From a virus: a stretch of 29,549 nucleotides of DNA. The stretch is taken from the IMG/VR virus record IMGVR_UViG_3300044624_003683, positions 1-29,549 of that record. One strand, 5' to 3'. The notes under the pieces were generated by a model. It searched no databases and was not told where the DNA came from. It worked only from the letters and a program-made list of their open reading frames with translations. The stretch's first letter is position 1. Each line of letters opens with the position of its first letter. The position numbers and the translations under genes were made by a program. Below, piece after piece: positions 5,463 through 19,461 of this stretch.

Positions 5463-5981
5463 TCAAGTATTTTGAAACCAATTTGGTTTGTCGCGCTTAG
5501 TCCAAGTTGCAAAAGGTTTATCGTATTGATAATATAAACGATATTTACCAACTGAATTTACGTCATTAAATGTCGCGTGTTGACGACATTGCATTGTAGG
5601 CGCAATGGCTACTGCAAATTCTGTTTGATTGCCATAGGGAACTACCGATTTGTCAAAGTTGTCAGCAACCCAGTTGATAAACCGTATTGAAAAGTGTGGA
5701 TTGTATCCACGATAAATACGCTCGCGCTCAAGAGCGAAAGCGTGGTCGATAGACCAAAGAAGGTTGCCGATTGTTTCCCGCATCCACTTAGATACAGGAT
5801 GATTGAAGTAAGAATGCTTGCGAGGTTGGCCAAGCATATTAGGTGGAGCAGATTTAAGTACGGTGACATCGAAACAATTAGCGGCCATTTGAGAAATTTC
5901 TACGACAATTTTTGATAAATGTTTGTCGCAATTATACTCTGCTGCTTTTTTGGGACAAGAATCTAATACAAATATATTCAT
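5463..5981 (-). CDS. Conserved-type phage protein of unknown function (172 aa)
   Basis: The N-terminal signature (MNIFVLDSCPKKAAEYNCDK followed by HLSKIVVE and then SQMAAN) resembles a recurring phage family whose members begin with a short beta strand and an A-A-x-x-x-C-D-K-H motif. The middle has HPVSKWMRETIGNLLWSIDH and the C-terminus has YRLYYQYDKPFATWTKRDKP. Conserved His, Cys, Asp and Lys hint at an enzyme, but I know of no demonstrated activity. Its ATG is 34 bases from the divergent homing-endonuclease start, which may have separated this gene from its original promoter. Confidence 0.75.
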   Translation of the reverse strand: MNIFVLDSCPKKAAEYNCDKHLSKIVVEISQMAANCFDVTVLKSAPPNMLGQPRKHSYFNHPVSKWMRETIGNLLWSIDHAFALERERIYRGYNPHFSIRFINWVADNFDKSVVPYGNQTEFAVAIAPTMQCRQHATFNDVNSVGKYRLYYQYDKPFATWTKRDKPNWFQNT

Positions 5982-6001
5982 GACAATAAGATTAATTTTG
6001 A

Positions 6002-6010
6002 GTGTAAGAA
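6002..6010 (+). promoter_or_regulatory. GTGTAA-type element before the GIY-YIG gene
   Basis: GTGTAAGAA lies 5 bases before the ATG at 6016. It is a variant of the GTGTAAAT element seen at the same distance before several other genes here, and is a candidate phage-specific (late) promoter -10 element. Confidence 0.3.
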
Positions 6011-6015
6011 CTAAT

Positions 6016-6855
6016 ATGGGTTTAATTTACGCAATAAAGTGCGCGTTGTCAATGAAAATGTATGTAGGATCTACAAATAATTTTCAAAAAAGAAAGAGTA
6101 GACATTTAAATGATTTAAAAAAGGGAAAGCATCATTCAAAAAAGTTGCAAAGGTCTTGGATTAAGTATGGCGAAAATAATTTTAGTTTCATAATTTTAGA
6201 AGAAGATGTAAGAGAAAATTTAATTGAAAGAGAGCAGTATTGGATAAATTTTTTAAACACATATAAAAATGGATTTAATTCAAGACCAGACGCTCATGCT
6301 GTTTTATATGGCGAAAATCATCATTGGTATAAAAAGCAACCCTATAATAAGGGGCATAAAAGTAATAATAGAAAAAAAATTGTTTCGTACAATTTAATTA
6401 CTGGAGAAGTTAAGCATTATGATTTTTCTTCCCAACCAATAGAAGAAGGTTTCCATCCTCAATATACTTCTACTTTTAAAAAAATGTCAAAATCTCAAGA
6501 TAGATTATGGTTTTTAGAAAAAGATTTTTGTTTTTCTTTTTTTAAGGAAAAATACTTAAATGTAGTTTATCGAAAAAATAAAAATTTAGGTAAAACAAGA
6601 ACTCAACAAACTAAAGATAAAATTTCTTTAGGAAAAATTGGTAAAAAATTTACACAAGAGCATGTTAAAAATCTATCAAAAGCAAAATTTAACAAAGGGC
6701 AATCCATACAAAGATCTGATGGAATTATTTATAGTTCAATAGCTACTGCTGCGAGAGAACTTAAAGTTGACAGTTCAATAATTTCAAGAAGCTTATCTAA
6801 AGAAAGAAAATCTTCAGTAAAAGGTTATTTTTTTAAATATTTAAACAGAGATTAA
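6016..6855 (+). CDS. GIY-YIG homing endonuclease with NUMOD domains
   Basis: The start at 6016 gives 279 residues and places the GIY-YIG core at the N-terminus: LIY at residues 3-5, YVG at 16-18, a catalytic-type Arg in QKRKSRH, and the Glu in EREQYWI near residue 73. After a linker come a NUMOD3-like stretch (NLGKTRTQQTKDKISLGKIG) and a C-terminal NUMOD1-like helix-turn-helix (YSSIATAARELKVDSSIISR). These modules bind the target DNA. It is a free-standing homing endonuclease that would cut related phages lacking it and spread with its flanks. It is the only plus-strand gene in this stretch and converges on the 6852-7010 gene with a 4-base overlap, consistent with insertion. Confidence 0.93.
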   Translation: MGLIYAIKCALSMKMYVGSTNNFQKRKSRHLNDLKKGKHHSKKLQRSWIKYGENNFSFIILEEDVRENLIEREQYWINFLNTYKNGFNSRPDAHAVLYGENHHWYKKQPYNKGHKSNNRKKIVSYNLITGEVKHYDFSSQPIEEGFHPQYTSTFKKMSKSQDRLWFLEKDFCFSFFKEKYLNVVYRKNKNLGKTRTQQTKDKISLGKIGKKFTQEHVKNLSKAKFNKGQSIQRSDGIIYSSIATAARELKVDSSIISRSLSKERKSSVKGYFFKYLNRD

Positions 6856-9171: not shown

Positions 9172-9879
9172 CTACTCTTTACACATAAGCGCCTTCCAAG
9201 AAACTGGAAAATTCTTTTCGGCTAATTTGTAAATCATGTCTGCAATGTCTCTTGTTTCTTTTTGAGTATCTTTCTTAAGTCTTAAGCCGCAAATACGAGC
9301 AAAAGCATATAAAGATCCACTCCAATACCATTCTGTATACATATTTTGCGGCAAGATCATTCTTGCTTGTTCTGCACAAACTTGCATGTCGATCATTGCA
9401 TTGTACAGTTCTCTGCACATATTTACGACTGCTTTAGGCTGACATTCTTCAGCGAATGTTAATTCAACAAATTCGTCGTCATAACTACCTTGTTTTTTAT
9501 CTGGATTTTTTTTTCTCCACTTTTCTGGAAAATAAAATTCTGGTTCACTGTCTACGTAACGACGAGAAATTTCATTCCAAGTAAGTCCTACTTGATGCTT
9601 GCCTAATTGACGAGCAACAAAAATTGGAGCCTTGATTCTGAATTGAAGAAAACAATGGCTAAATGGAGTCCAGTGATTTTCGCGAGCCAAGAAATTAATT
9701 AATTTTTTATCAGCTTCTTTTAATTCTTTAACTGGAGATGTTACGACTATTCTGGAATCATCCCAACATTCTTTTTGATGACTTACAATATTCCAATCTG
9801 ATTGTTTGTCAAAGCTAACTCTAGCGGCATTAGCGACTGTCAAGTCGCTACCCATGTAATCAATTAAATCTACTTTCAT
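9172..9879 (-). CDS. thyX: Flavin-dependent thymidylate synthase (ThyX)
   Basis: The protein has 235 residues. The N-terminus (VDLIDYMGSDLTVANAARVS) and ENHWTPFSHCFLQFRIKAPI followed by FVARQLGKHQ and WNEISRRYVD match ThyX, which makes dTMP from dUMP using FAD, NADPH and methylene-tetrahydrofolate. The usual R-H-R-x7/8-S signature is altered here to K-H-Q with the downstream Ser retained; related phage enzymes may share this. The C-terminus (MIYKLAEKNFPVSWKALM) is also typical. Together with the dCMP deaminase it would supply thymidylate for an AT-rich genome. The ATG overlaps the HNH gene stop by four bases. Confidence 0.9.
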   Translation of the reverse strand: MKVDLIDYMGSDLTVANAARVSFDKQSDWNIVSHQKECWDDSRIVVTSPVKELKEADKKLINFLARENHWTPFSHCFLQFRIKAPIFVARQLGKHQVGLTWNEISRRYVDSEPEFYFPEKWRKKNPDKKQGSYDDEFVELTFAEECQPKAVVNMCRELYNAMIDMQVCAEQARMILPQNMYTEWYWSGSLYAFARICGLRLKKDTQKETRDIADMIYKLAEKNFPVSWKALMCKE

Positions 9880-10370
9880 TTTAAATATCTTTTATAATAA
9901 ACAATGTTATGAATTATTTTTTTGTCAACATTGTATTTTCTTGCAGTCGCATTAATAAATCCACGTTTTTTAATTAAAAGTGAATATTCGTTTCTAATTT
10001 CAGTCGCTTGTTCTATTGACAATTTTCTTTTTCTTAAAGCAGATAAATAACCTGCATGTTTTCTTTGTTCAATTGGCTTATCAAGTTGATTTTGCTTGGA
10101 CGTACCAATTTCAATATTTTGAAATGAAAAATCTAATTTATTTCCATTTAAATGACGAACTTGCATTTCTTTTTCAAAAATTGCATTTCCAAATTTTTGA
10201 TAAGCAACAAGCCTATGCACTCTAACTGCATGCCTAGAAATTGTTATTGTTGGATAGCCATCCTGCAACCAAAAATTTATTTTCTGACACAAATGATTGA
10301 AAATTTCACCATTTTCAACTCTATAACCTTTTTTAAAAGCTTCAATTATTAAAAGATTACTTTTACTCAT
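9876..10370 (-). CDS. HNH homing endonuclease
   Basis: The protein has 164 residues. The HNH core is visible: VHRLVAYQKFG (H52), VRHLNGNKLDFSFQNIEIGT (H73, N75 and the closing N-I-E-I-G-T) and SKQNQ, the arrangement of the HNH_3 family. A C-terminal helix-turn-helix-like segment (ATARKYNVDKKIIHNIV) probably binds DNA. The gene sits between the spanins and ThyX with four-base overlaps on both sides, so it is cleanly inserted in the operon and probably spreads by homing. It has no obvious promoter of its own. Confidence 0.88.
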   Translation of the reverse strand: MSKSNLLIIEAFKKGYRVENGEIFNHLCQKINFWLQDGYPTITISRHAVRVHRLVAYQKFGNAIFEKEMQVRHLNGNKLDFSFQNIEIGTSKQNQLDKPIEQRKHAGYLSALRKRKLSIEQATEIRNEYSLLIKKRGFINATARKYNVDKKIIHNIVYYKRYLK

Positions 10371-15400: not shown

Positions 15401-16075
15401 ATGAAAATGTTAATTCTTGAAGAAGAGATAAAAAACTTTAAGTCTATACCTTGTGAATGTAAGGATTGTAATATTATTTTTTATATAACTAAAAGTCAAG
15501 CGAGAAGAGGAATTAAAGGGACTAAAAAAAATGATTTTTGCTCAAAAGCATGTAAAAATAGCTATGCTTCCAAAAAAGGCAATATTGAATGCGAATGTTT
15601 AAATTGTAAAACAAAAATTACGAAACATAAAAATCAATTTAATAAATACGCAAATCATTTTTGTGGCAGTTCGTGTGCGGCAACATACAGTAACACGCAC
15701 AAAACTAAAGGTAATAGAAAATCCAAGTTGGAATTTTATCTAGAAAAAGAATTACCATTACTATATCCAAATTTAGAATTTCATTTTAACAGAAAAGATA
15801 CGATTAATTCTGAATTAGATATTTATATTCCAAGTATAAAATTAGCTTTTGAATTAAATGGAATATTTCATTATGAACCTATATACGGTGAAACAAAATT
15901 AAATCAAATACAAAATAATGATAAGCGTAAATTTCAAGCTTGTTTAGAGCGTGGAATAGAATTATGCATTATAGATAGTTCTAAATTAGTATACTTTAAG
16001 GAAAGTAAAGCTAAACCTTACTTGGACATAATAATTAATATAATTAATCAAAAATCAGCCTCTGACCAGAATTGA
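15401..16075 (+). CDS. Vsr-like (EDxHD) homing endonuclease with zinc fingers
   Basis: The protein has 224 residues. The N-terminal half has two or more Cys-rich fingers: CECKDC with FCSKAC, and CECLNC with FCGSSC. The C-terminal domain fits the Vsr-like EDxHD nuclease fold: KSKLEFYLEKEL (E111), SELDIYIPSIKLAFELNG (D140), FHYEP (H157) and NNDKRK (D174). Free-standing homing endonucleases of this class occur in phages. The gene is on the plus strand among minus-strand genes, and its 3' end overlaps the antisense of tRNA-Thr by 19 bases. The nearby ORF-less group I intron in tRNA-Asn is a possible partner. Confidence 0.85.
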   Translation: MKMLILEEEIKNFKSIPCECKDCNIIFYITKSQARRGIKGTKKNDFCSKACKNSYASKKGNIECECLNCKTKITKHKNQFNKYANHFCGSSCAATYSNTHKTKGNRKSKLEFYLEKELPLLYPNLEFHFNRKDTINSELDIYIPSIKLAFELNGIFHYEPIYGETKLNQIQNNDKRKFQACLERGIELCIIDSSKLVYFKESKAKPYLDIIINIINQKSASDQN

Positions 16076-16127
16076 ACTGGTATCAAGGGTTTACAAAACC
16101 CACGTTTTACCATTAAACTAAAGAGGC
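16057..16127 (-). tRNA. tRNA-Thr (UGU)
   Basis: Minus strand. The acceptor GCCTCTT pairs with CAGAGGC except for the last pair (U7/C66). The anticodon loop TTTGTAA in the stem GGGT/ACCC gives anticodon TGT, and the T arm is ACCAG-TTCAATT-CTGGT. The discriminator is U and CCA is not encoded. The 3' end overlaps the stop region of the convergent endonuclease gene. Confidence 0.85.
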
Positions 16128-16161: not shown

Positions 16162-16421
16162 TGGCTCCAAGACCTGGATTTGAACCAGGAACCGATCCGT
16201 TACATCTACCCACAAGTTTTCTTTCCATGTGGAATGGACTTTGTCTTCATCCCATAAGGATGTTCCGTGTAAAGTCTCTACTCTTGCCCAGTCTTTCGAC
16301 TTGCTAGATCGGCGTTGGCATTTCAGCGTTCACCGAATTAGCGGAATTTTTCAAATAGAATTTCTTCTATAAGCTGCCATTTTACCTACAGCGGATTGCT
16401 CTACCGTTGAGCTATCTTGGA
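16162..16421 (-). tRNA. tRNA-Asn (GUU) split by a group I intron
   Basis: The 5' exon (16388-16421, 34 bases) ends in the anticodon loop at CTGT. The 3' exon (16162-16202, 41 bases) begins TAACGGAT. Joined, they give a complete tRNA: acceptor TCCAAGA/TCTTGGA (7 bp), D arm GCTC/GAGC, anticodon stem ATCCG/CGGAT, loop CTGTTAA with anticodon GTT, T arm CCTGG-TTCAAAT-CCAGG, discriminator G and an encoded CCA. The U1-A72 pair and G73 are typical for tRNA-Asn. The intron interrupts the anticodon between its second and third base, so splicing is needed for function. Confidence 0.9.
16203..16387 (-). ncRNA. Compact group I self-splicing intron (185 nt, no ORF)
   Basis: P1 forms between the 5' exon end GCTGT and intron GCAGC (16368-16372), with the conserved U-G wobble at the splice site. 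The last intron base is G (16203). P2 is ATAGAA-GAAA-TTCTAT. P3 is TTCCG/CGGAA (16342-16346 with 16263-16267). P6 includes GTC-GAAA-GAC. P7 is GACTTT/AAAGTC (16271-16276 with 16237-16242), inside R-like AGAGACTTTA and S-like AAGACAAAGTCC sequences. P8 is CATCC/GGATG and P9 is TTCCA/TGGAA. This is the full expected order of a group I ribozyme. No ORF is present. Confidence 0.88.
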
Positions 16422-16476: not shown

Positions 16477-16561
16477 TGGTGGGTAGTGATGGACTCGAAC
16501 CATCGATGACCGAAGTCGGGAAATTTACAGTCTCCTGCAATAGCCGCTATGCGAACTACCC
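16477..16561 (-). tRNA. tRNA-Tyr (GUA), long variable arm
   Basis: Minus strand. The acceptor is GGGTAGT/ACTACCC. The anticodon stem is GGAGA/TTTCC with loop CTGTAAA, anticodon GTA. A long variable arm (GAC-TTC-GGTC) is present as expected for bacterial tRNA-Tyr. The T arm is GATGG-TTCGAGT-CCATC, the discriminator is A and CCA is encoded. The preceding gene's stop codon falls within its first six bases. Confidence 0.93.
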
Positions 16562-16795: not shown

Positions 16796-17207
16796 ATAAA
16801 AAATTCTAGTCTCTCCCAGTGTCACACCACTTTGCACTGCTGGCAGGTGTCGCTCTCTATAGATGTCTCTCCATTAGTCACACCACTAACTCAACCAGCG
16901 TAAGCATTAGGTGCTATGCTAAATCAAGTCTGGCGGCATGGAGCCACCAGCAGGTGTCGCACCCCAATTGGGGGATTAAGTAATGGTTTTTTGCAGAGTG
17001 TTTAAAAGATCTCAGTCACAGTATCTCACCATTGCACTCAAGTGCTCCTAGTCTCTCCCAGTGTCACACAACTCAGTCGTCTGGAAATCCAGACCAAGCA
17101 CCCCGTATTCACAGAGAGGCATGTGTCGCTTTCGAGCAGGATTTCTATGCTGCTACATTCCAATTACAGCAAAACCTACTACCATTGGGTTTGTGGTTAC
17201 TCGAAAG
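16796..17207 (-). ncRNA. Candidate large structured non-coding RNA between tRNA-fMet and a membrane-protein gene
   Basis: About 410 bases with no convincing gene and clearly higher GC than the flanks. On the minus strand many short stems can form: CTTTCGAG (17200-17207) with CTCGAAAG about 60 bases on; GTCTGGA/TCCAGAC around 17077-17092; GCACT/AGTGC near 17035-17046; CCCCAATTGGGG near 16961-16973; CACC/GGTG near 16946-16956; AGCAT/ATGCT near 16902-16920. It also contains internally repeated motifs. Large ornate phage RNAs such as GOLLD and ROOL often lie next to tRNA genes, which this recalls, but I cannot show homology. The direction is assumed from the neighbours. Confidence 0.45.
16806..17130 (-). 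repeat. Imperfect repeat units within the candidate ncRNA
   Basis: A 22-base sequence is identical at 16806-16827 and 17048-17069 (minus strand GTGTGACACTGGGAGAGACT plus AG), with a diverged copy at 16864-16887. A second motif (minus strand GCGACACCTGC) occurs near 16843-16853 and 16950-16960, with a variant near 17119-17129. The two motifs alternate in the same order three times, with interiors of different length, as if a unit had been duplicated and then diverged. Confidence 0.6.
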
Positions 17208-17283
17208 TGGTTGCAGGTGTGGGATTCGCACCCACGATCTCTTGGTTATGAGCCAAGCGACTTAACTACTTGTCCAACCTGCG
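17208..17283 (-). tRNA. Initiator tRNA-fMet (CAU)
   Basis: Minus strand. The anticodon stem CTTGG/CCAAG with loop CTCATAA gives anticodon CAT. The acceptor CGCAGGT pairs with ACCTGCA except C1:A72, the hallmark mismatch of bacterial initiator tRNA. The D stem has A11:U24, another initiator feature, and the anticodon stem keeps two of the three usual G-C pairs. The T loop is TGCGAAT, with an unusual G at the position normally pseudouridine 55. The discriminator is A and CCA is encoded. Confidence 0.85.
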
Positions 17284-17289
17284 ATTAAA

Positions 17290-17805: not shown

Positions 17806-17834
17806 ATAATACGTCAAAGATTTGGAAATGTCAA
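17806..17834 (-). promoter_or_regulatory. Strong sigma70-type promoter toward the tRNA belt
   Basis: On the minus strand TTGACA (17829-17834) and TATTAT (17806-17811) are separated by exactly 17 bases. Transcription would begin about 14 bases before the ATG at 17785. This is the closest match to the bacterial consensus in the window and would drive two small genes and the tRNAs. Confidence 0.65.
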
Positions 17835-18499
17835 CTGATATTTTCGCCGTTGCAGTGATAAACTTGCTTGAGATCCCAGTTTTCTTTTTCTACTGCTAAG
17901 AGCATGTCTCTTGTTCTGTAGATGGTTTTTCTGAGAATTGGATTAGAGTGGTTCTTGAGCCATTCGTGTCTTACGTTCAGGTAAGAAGTGATCCATTCTT
18001 TTTCGCCTCCACCCTTGGAAGGAATTGAAGCGGAAAATTTATTCCTTAAAAAGCTCAAAATACTACCAGAATGAATGAAAGAATCATAGATCACCAACAT
18101 AGAAAGCGGCAAAGTAAATTTGTTTGATTCGAACCATTTTACTGCAGGCTTCCAATAATGCTCATCAAAAAATTCATCTTGAGATTGTTGCATGATTGGA
18201 TCAGAACCAGAAGCTTTTAAAATTGAAAGTAAATTTGCATCATTAACCAATGAAACTTTTCCGATCTTTTGTAAATATGGTTTTAATTCATCAGCGAATT
18301 TTCCATTTTTTTGAACATATAAGGATATTAATTTATTTAAATTGCCCCATTCTGTTGTTTGGCTCTTGCCGAATGTGATTTGCTTGATTTGATTTGGCCC
18401 ATCCTTATACAAGGATATAGCTGCATAATTTCCATTTTGCGAGCCAGATTCTATATAGTTTAAAATTCTTTGTATTTTGTTTTTGGTTTCGGGAGTCAT
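17831..18499 (-). CDS. GH46 chitosanase-like endolysin
   Basis: The protein has 222 residues. The N-terminal YIESGSQNGNYAAISLYKDG contains the catalytic-type Glu17 and a candidate Asp33. ITFGKSQTTEWGNLNKLI and the later VIYDSFIHSGS match the glycoside hydrolase family 46 pattern, in which a Glu and an Asp flank the sugar cleft. Phages use such domains to cut cell-wall glycans, so this is the best endolysin candidate. There is no signal peptide, so a holin would be needed for release; one candidate lies at 8952. The start overlaps the GMP reductase stop by four bases, and AAGGAA lies shortly upstream. Confidence 0.78.
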   Translation of the reverse strand: MTPETKNKIQRILNYIESGSQNGNYAAISLYKDGPNQIKQITFGKSQTTEWGNLNKLISLYVQKNGKFADELKPYLQKIGKVSLVNDANLLSILKASGSDPIMQQSQDEFFDEHYWKPAVKWFESNKFTLPLSMLVIYDSFIHSGSILSFLRNKFSASIPSKGGGEKEWITSYLNVRHEWLKNHSNPILRKTIYRTRDMLLAVEKENWDLKQVYHCNGENIS

Positions 18500-19461
18500 A
18501 TTTTTTTCCTTACTTCCATTTTACACAATTCGTAAGGTGATGATGCTCCAGCGTATGACATTGATGATTTAATTCCCTGCTCAAATTTTTTCAAAAGAAC
18601 AAAGGTGGAGTCTTGTGACGGTTGTATCAAGCTTTCTCTTCCTTCTACATATTTCTCTTCCCCTTTATTTCTTGCAGAAGCGGAGCCATAAAAAACTTTT
18701 TTATCGCCGTTAAATGGAGCTGCGCTGTCGTAGCAGGCAGCAAACATACCCCCAATCATTACCATTTCCGCTCCAGCGTGTAGGGCTTTGCAAACATCAC
18801 CAATTTCCCTAACTTGACCATCAGCAATGATTGGAACTGTTGGCATGATTTTATTTTCCATTGCTTGTTTGATTTCAGAAATGATGGAGTACATTGGCGT
18901 ACCTACCCCAGTATTATTATAAGTAGTGCATGCTGCTCCCATAGAAAGTCCAACCTTAATTGCGTCAGCACCCCATTCAATTAAATCCTTCGCTCCTGAA
19001 ATTGAGCCAGCATTTCCAACAATTAGTTTTGGCTTTTTTGTCCAAGGCAAATGATGGAAAAATTTGCAGATATTTTTAACAAGAATATTATGCCCATGCG
19101 CGACATCGATTGTAATAAAATCAACTTTGTAGTTGTTTTCCGCTAAATTTTCGAGAAGATCGTAGTCAGCATCCTTAACTCCAATACTAATACTTAGAGG
19201 AAAATTTGAATAATTTTTTTCAGTCAACCATTGCAAAATTTCTTTGTACTCATAGAACCTATGCAAGATATAAAAATAACTTTCTTTGCCGAGGGTTTCT
19301 GCCCATTTAAAGTTAATAGTACAAGCCATGTTTGACGGCAAAACTGGCAATTTAAACTTTGTACCGAGAAAATCTACTTCTGTAGATAGACTATCTCTTG
19401 ATTTTGTTTCTGAATAATTTGGAAGCAAAACTACATCTTTATAAGAAAGCATTTCTTTCAT
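18496..19461 (-). CDS. GMP reductase / IMP dehydrogenase family enzyme
   Basis: The protein has 321 residues. LSYKDVVLLPNYSETKSRDS at the N-terminus, IDVAHGHN, IVGNAGSI and GADAIKVGLSMGAACTTYNN followed by TGVGTP carry the active-site Cys178 of the family. Then come ADGQVREIGDV and MIGGMFA. No CBS domains are inserted, and the length fits GMP reductase (GMP to IMP with NADPH) better than IMP dehydrogenase. It would change purine pools during infection. It lies between the endolysin and a small gene with four-base overlaps on both sides. The exact reaction direction is inferred. Confidence 0.85.
   Translation of the reverse strand: MKEMLSYKDVVLLPNYSETKSRDSLSTEVDFLGTKFKLPVLPSNMACTINFKWAETLGKESYFYILHRFYEYKEILQWLTEKNYSNFPLSISIGVKDADYDLLENLAENNYKVDFITIDVAHGHNILVKNICKFFHHLPWTKKPKLIVGNAGSISGAKDLIEWGADAIKVGLSMGAACTTYNNTGVGTPMYSIISEIKQAMENKIMPTVPIIADGQVREIGDVCKALHAGAEMVMIGGMFAACYDSAAPFNGDKKVFYGSASARNKGEEKYVEGRESLIQPSQDSTFVLLKKFEQGIKSSMSYAGASSPYELCKMEVRKKI

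Follow-up and report, generated by a model that had tools for sequence, protein, structure and literature searches.

A tRNA-Asn gene on the minus strand of positions 16162-16421 of this viral DNA (the window, 29,549 nucleotides in full) has its anticodon GUU split between U35 and U36, which raises the question of what the insert is, whether it could be removed to give a mature tRNA and how it came to lie in a phage tRNA gene.

A tRNA-Asn gene interrupted within its anticodon

The contig is a virus record in which phage tail genes are present (PF05100, 1.5e-37). The split gene and the tRNA genes on either side of it are arranged as follows:

16477-16561, minus strand: tRNA-Tyr, upstream; synteny anchor to sister phages with an uninterrupted tRNA-Asn
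16421-16388, minus strand: tRNA-Asn 5' exon, 34 nt; acceptor strand, D arm, anticodon stem and loop up to U35
16387-16203, minus strand: predicted group I intron, 185 nt, no ORF; begins after U35, final base G
16202-16162, minus strand: tRNA-Asn 3' exon; from U36 through the encoded CCA, discriminator G73
16057-16127, minus strand: tRNA-Thr, downstream of tRNA-Asn

An earlier, sequence-only reading of this DNA had proposed that the tRNA becomes whole once 185 bases are removed and that the cut falls between the second and third anticodon bases. Both proposals were confirmed with ARAGORN, which called a 75-nt tRNA-Asn(gtt) from the joined exons and placed the junction at 35/36, behind the second base of the anticodon. 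The acceptor stem is of 7 bp, the discriminator is G and the CCA is encoded; the tRNA is intact once the intron is removed and the insertion lies in the anticodon loop, as it does in bacterial anticodon-loop tRNA introns. The unspliced gene was missed by ARAGORN at the settings used and fell below the cut-off of the Rfam tRNA model under default settings. Splice points shifted by one base were considered and rejected: one base earlier, the anticodon becomes GGU and the intron ends in U, while a shift to one base later gives the anticodon GUA, but the long arm of tRNA-Tyr is missing and the U-G pair at the splice site is broken. A second, intact tRNA-Asn, which the same reading had named, in combination with a lack of spliced product from the split gene, as evidence that would weigh against it, was not found in the 29.5-kb contig by tRNA search; the contig is possibly a fragment, so that another tRNA-Asn may exist elsewhere in the phage, and how far the phage depends on the split gene is to be read with that in mind.

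Identity and secondary structure of the insert

The covariance model RF00028 matched positions 16218-16397 with 37.6 bits (E=3.2e-8, 381-base search), below its gathering score of 50, which is a curation cut-off and not a biological feature. A second covariance model, R1, was made from 16 aligned tRNA introns of public contigs, with the window and all relatives of more than 80% identity left out of the training alignment. R1 found the intron at 129.1 bits (E=3.8e-40) with exact boundaries, its match running from the exon bases of P1 up to the 3' exon, and the next-best place in the window scored 5.5 bits. The covariance-model check suggested in the earlier reading was thus positive with both models, and the lack of any group I match that it had named as a refutation was not encountered. 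The helices drawn on the window are listed below, with the fraction of alignment cells paired and the covarying pairs where these were scored for the helix:

P1, 16392-16373, minus strand: exon GCUGU 16392-16388 with guide GCAGC 16377-16373; U-G at the 5' splice site
P2, 16370-16355, minus strand: AUAGAA 16370-16365 with UUCUAU 16360-16355; 6 of 6 pairs covary, 97% of cells paired
P3, minus strand: UUCCG 16346-16342 with CGGAA 16267-16263; 5 of 5 pairs covary, 95.5% of cells paired
P4, 16336-16309, minus strand: UCGGUG 16336-16331 with CGCCGA 16314-16309; 5 of 6 pairs covary, 100% of cells paired
P5, inside P4, minus strand: short, GC with GC
P6a, 16301-16290, minus strand: AGUC 16301-16298 with GACU 16293-16290; GAAA loop
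P7, minus strand: GACUU 16276-16272 with AAGUC 16241-16237; guanosine-binding helix, 99% of cells paired, 1 covarying pair
P8, 16262-16248, minus strand: CAUCC 16262-16258 with GGAUG 16252-16248; 4 of 5 pairs covary, 84.5% of cells paired
P9, 16232-16210, minus strand: CCACA 16232-16228 with UGUGG 16214-16210; 4 of 5 pairs covary, 86.4% of cells paired

All 43 drawn pairs form in the window. Across 22 aligned introns the pairs were kept in 91.9% of cells, compared with 67.6% after shuffling, and covariation reached 0.631 against 0.178 for the shuffled alignments, none of the 500 shuffles being as high. When the partners were displaced by 1-3 columns, covariation fell to 0.15 or less; drawing the structure on the window biases this comparison in favour of that structure, and the compensatory changes come from the other sequences. 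Covariation is clearest in P2, P3 and P4 and weakest in P6a, which pairs in the window and its close relatives and is weak in distant rows (56-68% of cells). A P3-P4-P6-P7-P8 core with the crossing of P3 and P7, as in group I introns, is present, and the core columns that are invariant in all relatives are kept in the window. The order of P3, P7 and P8 put forward in the sequence-only reading therefore holds both in the window and across the 22 introns, as do the details it gave for the splice sites: the 5' site follows the U of CTGT, which is paired U-G in P1 (GCUGU/GCAGC in the window) in 22 of the 22 introns, and the last intron base is G (16203, minus strand), a G preceding UAA in all aligned rows. 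Less favourable to this structure, thermodynamic folding alone gave a z of only -2.45 and a minimum-energy structure without P1 and P2.

Judged from its sequence, the 185-nt insert is a group I intron. In being small and lying in a tRNA it would suit subgroup IC3 (Azoarcus, Anabaena type), core subgroup features aside. The reading preferred here, to which a probability of about 90% is given, is that of a mobile group I ribozyme, short and ORF-less, whose predicted splicing would yield mature tRNA-Asn. In the transcript, exon GCUGU would pair with the internal guide GCAGC to form P1, a guanosine bound in P7 would cut after U35, and the freed U35 would attack after the terminal G, joining the exons as GUU in a mature tRNA-Asn. 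Such splicing would be expected to occur in vivo and presumably to need no phage protein.

Uninterrupted relatives and mobility

The neighbouring IMP dehydrogenase/GMP reductase-like gene led to close relatives of the phage (83-92% protein identity). In four of these relatives (L159, L160, L161 and L163) a tRNA-Asn(GTT) without any interruption lies close to the same tRNA genes, and the locus therefore occurs both with and without the intron. From tRNA-Tyr onward, L163 is 97% identical to the window over 122 bases and then continues into a different, uninterrupted tRNA-Asn. Since the tRNA-Asn exons differ as well, the entire gene may have been exchanged at this locus rather than the intron alone inserted.

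The window intron is 88% identical to that of L019 and 85% identical to that of L017, the exons being 66% identical in both comparisons. Empty alleles in close relatives together with an intron more alike than its exons, the pattern of a mobile intron, show mobility of this intron, the mechanism aside. In a tree of 74 introns, whose deeper branches are weak and whose bootstrap had not settled, the window intron groups with that of L019 (95/97) and then with those of L017 and L006 (96/98), and most bacterial tRNA-Asn introns fall elsewhere. By this tree the window intron is in a phage clade that spans dissimilar tRNA-Asn genes.

Neighbouring endonuclease-like ORFs and intronic endonucleases

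Endonuclease-like ORFs were found near the intron-bearing tRNA in all four phages of this clade (the window, L017, L006 and L019):

15401-16075, plus strand: free-standing homing-endonuclease-like ORF, 224 aa, beside the split tRNA-Asn; putative role in mobility
L017, 6613-7350: endonuclease-like ORF homologous to that of the window
L006, 8133-8894: endonuclease-like ORF
L019, 1906-2865: endonuclease-like ORF

The ORF of the window matches PHROG 559 (HNH endonuclease, 7.7e-14) and PHROG 3339 (homing endonuclease, 4e-9); it is without matches in Pfam and NCBIfam and without a convincing one in the PDB, and its AlphaFold model is poor (mean pLDDT 36.7). Its homologue in L017, beside a related intron, is 41.5% identical over 106 aa, and the ORFs of L006 and L019 are homologous to each other (47%). 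In the sister phage L163 the interval from tRNA-Thr to the following gene did not show this ORF. As phage tRNAs often have endonuclease genes among them, the association in the clade is suggestive only, and the ORF at 15401-16075 is a possible mobility partner of the intron.

The 185-nt window intron itself holds no endonuclease ORF of the intronic kind found in homing introns. Related phage tRNA-Asn and tRNA-Lys introns (L014, L005) do contain a PF11645 PD-(D/E)XK ORF, which matches PDB 2ost (E=4e-5), the structure of I-Ssp6803I from the Synechocystis tRNA-fMet intron. A PD-(D/E)-XK endonuclease is carried by that Synechocystis intron (PMC3073962). In the uninterrupted sister L160, a PF11645-type gene lies directly before tRNA-Asn. 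Spread between phages would take place by homing, for which the related phage introns have a PD-(D/E)XK enzyme of their own; in the ORF-less clade it would be possibly the adjoining endonuclease gene that moves the intron instead.

Distribution among phages and bacteria

A near copy of the whole gene was absent among 50,697 annotated phages searched by BLAST, and a plasmid search gave no matches to the intron. Two pattern scans of viral contigs, from which tRNA introns were collected, yielded about 17 distinct viral-contig lineages with group I introns at 35/36 of tRNA-Asn, as well as tRNA-Lys(TTT) introns. Terminase matches back the phage origin of the L008, L017, L019, L152, L155 and L158 contigs and, weakly, that of L011; rIIB is found in the L011 contig and a head protease in that of L153. 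The viral contigs L016 and L025 match Fibrobacter genomes, and some IMG/VR contigs are therefore not phage. Further phage introns, identified as model matches read by eye, lie in tRNA-Tyr (L151), tRNA-Leu UAA (L147, a phage of 735 kb, and L007), tRNA-Arg (L145) and CAU tRNAs (L172, L180). The tRNA-Arg of Microcoleus phage My-WqHQDG is annotated as 286 nt, and in this deposited record the annotated gene already takes in an intron of this kind. Intron matches in HTVC120P and KM23-C739 (capsid gene), crAss-like phages (helicase region) and BSP7 (DNA polymerase) are in protein genes and were not counted as tRNA introns.

In bacteria, tRNA-Asn(GTT) introns at 35/36 were found in at least 92 species genomes from many phyla (loci L028-L143), with Omnitrophota, Patescibacteria, Nitrospirota, Clostridia and others as hosts among the matches listed; some of the bacterial tRNA-Asn introns listed are about 500-690 nt long. 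A broader proposal, whose chances we consider evenly balanced, is that group I introns commonly inhabit phage tRNA genes (Asn, Lys, Tyr, Leu, Arg, CAU) without being annotated and circulate among phages as lineages of their own, the short ORF-less ones being moved by free-standing tRNA-adjacent endonucleases (collaborative homing), for which the anticodon loop would be the conserved target.

Several other interrupted RNA genes were noted during these searches. The 410-kb viral contig L155/G010 has five tRNA-intron-model matches, including one in tRNA-Asn and one in a tRNA read as Lys. In L163 (L172 1501-1706) a group I intron (93.8 bits) lies in a CAU tRNA whose loop is split before the anticodon, with CT ahead of the intron and CATAA after it, the same site being used in L180. 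The tRNA-Asn of Sinorhizobium phage phiM12 (L176, KF381361 about 94960-95081) is cut at the same point as that of the window, CTGT preceding the insert and TAA following it, and phiM7 and phiM19 have the same-site insert. This insert is of about 46 nt, is not group I and resembles a tRNA acceptor and T arm; the split tRNA is annotated as a tRNA-OTHER pseudogene or tRNA-Thr, and an HNH gene adjoins it. The 212-kb viral contig L011 (L182 3-534, G009 96200-97000) contains a permuted tmRNA of cyanobacterial type (RF04321 47.9 bits, RF01851 48.8 bits), the T loop of which (GGGGUUCGAU before and CCCC after the split) is interrupted by about 290 nt that score 48 bits against the group I intron model.

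Alternative explanations

It is unlikely that the intron is retained because it benefits the phage, for instance by shielding the anticodon against host anticodon nucleases up to the moment of splicing, or by making tRNA maturation depend on the GTP level. Such a role would be in keeping with the position of the intron within the anticodon loop, with the share of Asn among the codons of the window (6.2%) and with the occurrence of phage introns in Lys and Tyr tRNAs as well, these being known anticodon-nuclease targets. However, sister phages do without the intron, bacteria carry introns at the same sites, and mobility accounts for the patchiness without any advantage.

Less probable still is a degenerate, non-splicing remnant that leaves the tRNA-Asn a pseudogene. 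One outer pair of P5 has been lost in the window (C-C, as against A-U in L006) and the host supplies its own tRNA-Asn, both of which would suit a decaying gene, but the full set of drawn pairs (43/43), the tRNA stems, the discriminator and CCA are intact and the conserved columns of the catalytic core are kept. Removal by a protein splicing endonuclease in the style of archaeal and eukaryal tRNA introns, or an unrelated insertion, is very improbable: a short non-group-I insert does occupy the same tRNA-Asn site in phiM12, phiM7 and phiM19, but the covarying P3-P8 group I core and the R1 match (E=3.8e-40) explain the window insert without a bulge-helix-bulge.

Relation to known introns

As a short mobile group I ribozyme, the preferred reading, the window intron resembles bacterial anticodon-loop tRNA group I introns, which are likewise small, have U-G at the 5' splice site and share the same core architecture; it differs from the known ones in lying in tRNA-Asn(GUU), between U35 and U36, and in a phage genome. 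Gene and site are shared with the 35/36 introns of bacterial tRNA-Asn(GUU) (at least 92 genomes), whereas these mostly occupy tree branches separate from the phage introns and some are about 500-690 nt. Enzymes of the I-Ssp6803I type (PD-(D/E)XK, PDB 2ost, PF11645) belong to the same family as those in the L014 and L005 introns, while the window intron is ORF-less. The introns of T4, Twort, SPO1, crAss-like and Jug phages are of the same ribozyme class with endonuclease genes nearby, but as described they lie in protein genes and that of the window in a tRNA gene.

According to a 2014 review, every intron seen in phages up to then lay in a protein-coding gene, in spite of the abundance of phage tRNA genes (PMC3984707), and papers on crAss-like, Jug and Bastillevirinae phages, in the text available from them, place introns in protein genes only (PMC7886860, PMC12363816, PMC11878797). 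The window case and its relatives point in the opposite direction to the statement of the review. No report of phage tRNA introns was found in the literature searched, which was mostly without subscription journals and preprints. The sequence-only reading had known of no description of such a phage tRNA-Asn intron, and on this its claim of novelty stands in part: the review is in agreement with it, but same-site tRNA-Asn introns are widespread in bacteria and present in many other phages, and PMC12641178 cites a preprint by Nakagawa et al. (2025, bioRxiv 2025.07.03.662931) whose subject is a novel site for group I introns in the tRNA genes of Patescibacteria. By its title the preprint concerns bacteria, in contrast with the phage genome of the window, and it may cover the bacterial tRNA-Asn 35/36 site. 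Bacterial tRNA group I introns were already known, and what appears to be new is the phage tRNA-Asn case and its phage relatives.

Phage tRNA introns would have been overlooked because ARAGORN, at the settings used, skips the split gene, RF00028 scores it below the cut-off and tRNAscan-SE is not built for them, its authors stating that it was not designed for group I intron detection (PMC8450103). With split tRNA genes missed, phage tRNA counts are too low and arguments on absent phage tRNAs need rechecking. The anticodon loop, a target of host nucleases, would become a meeting place of mobile ribozymes, phage tRNAs and endonucleases.

Other features of the window

GIY-YIG and HNH_3 homing endonuclease genes lie at 5923-6855 and 9876-10370, adjoining ThyX, a thymidylate synthase, and other metabolism genes. 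Positions 17831-19461 hold a phage-encoded glycosyl hydrolase of family 46 (chitosanase family) and the IMP dehydrogenase/GMP reductase-like gene. At 17032-17288, three overlapping ORFs run antisense to tRNA-Met (17208-17283) and are probably spurious tRNA-antisense products.
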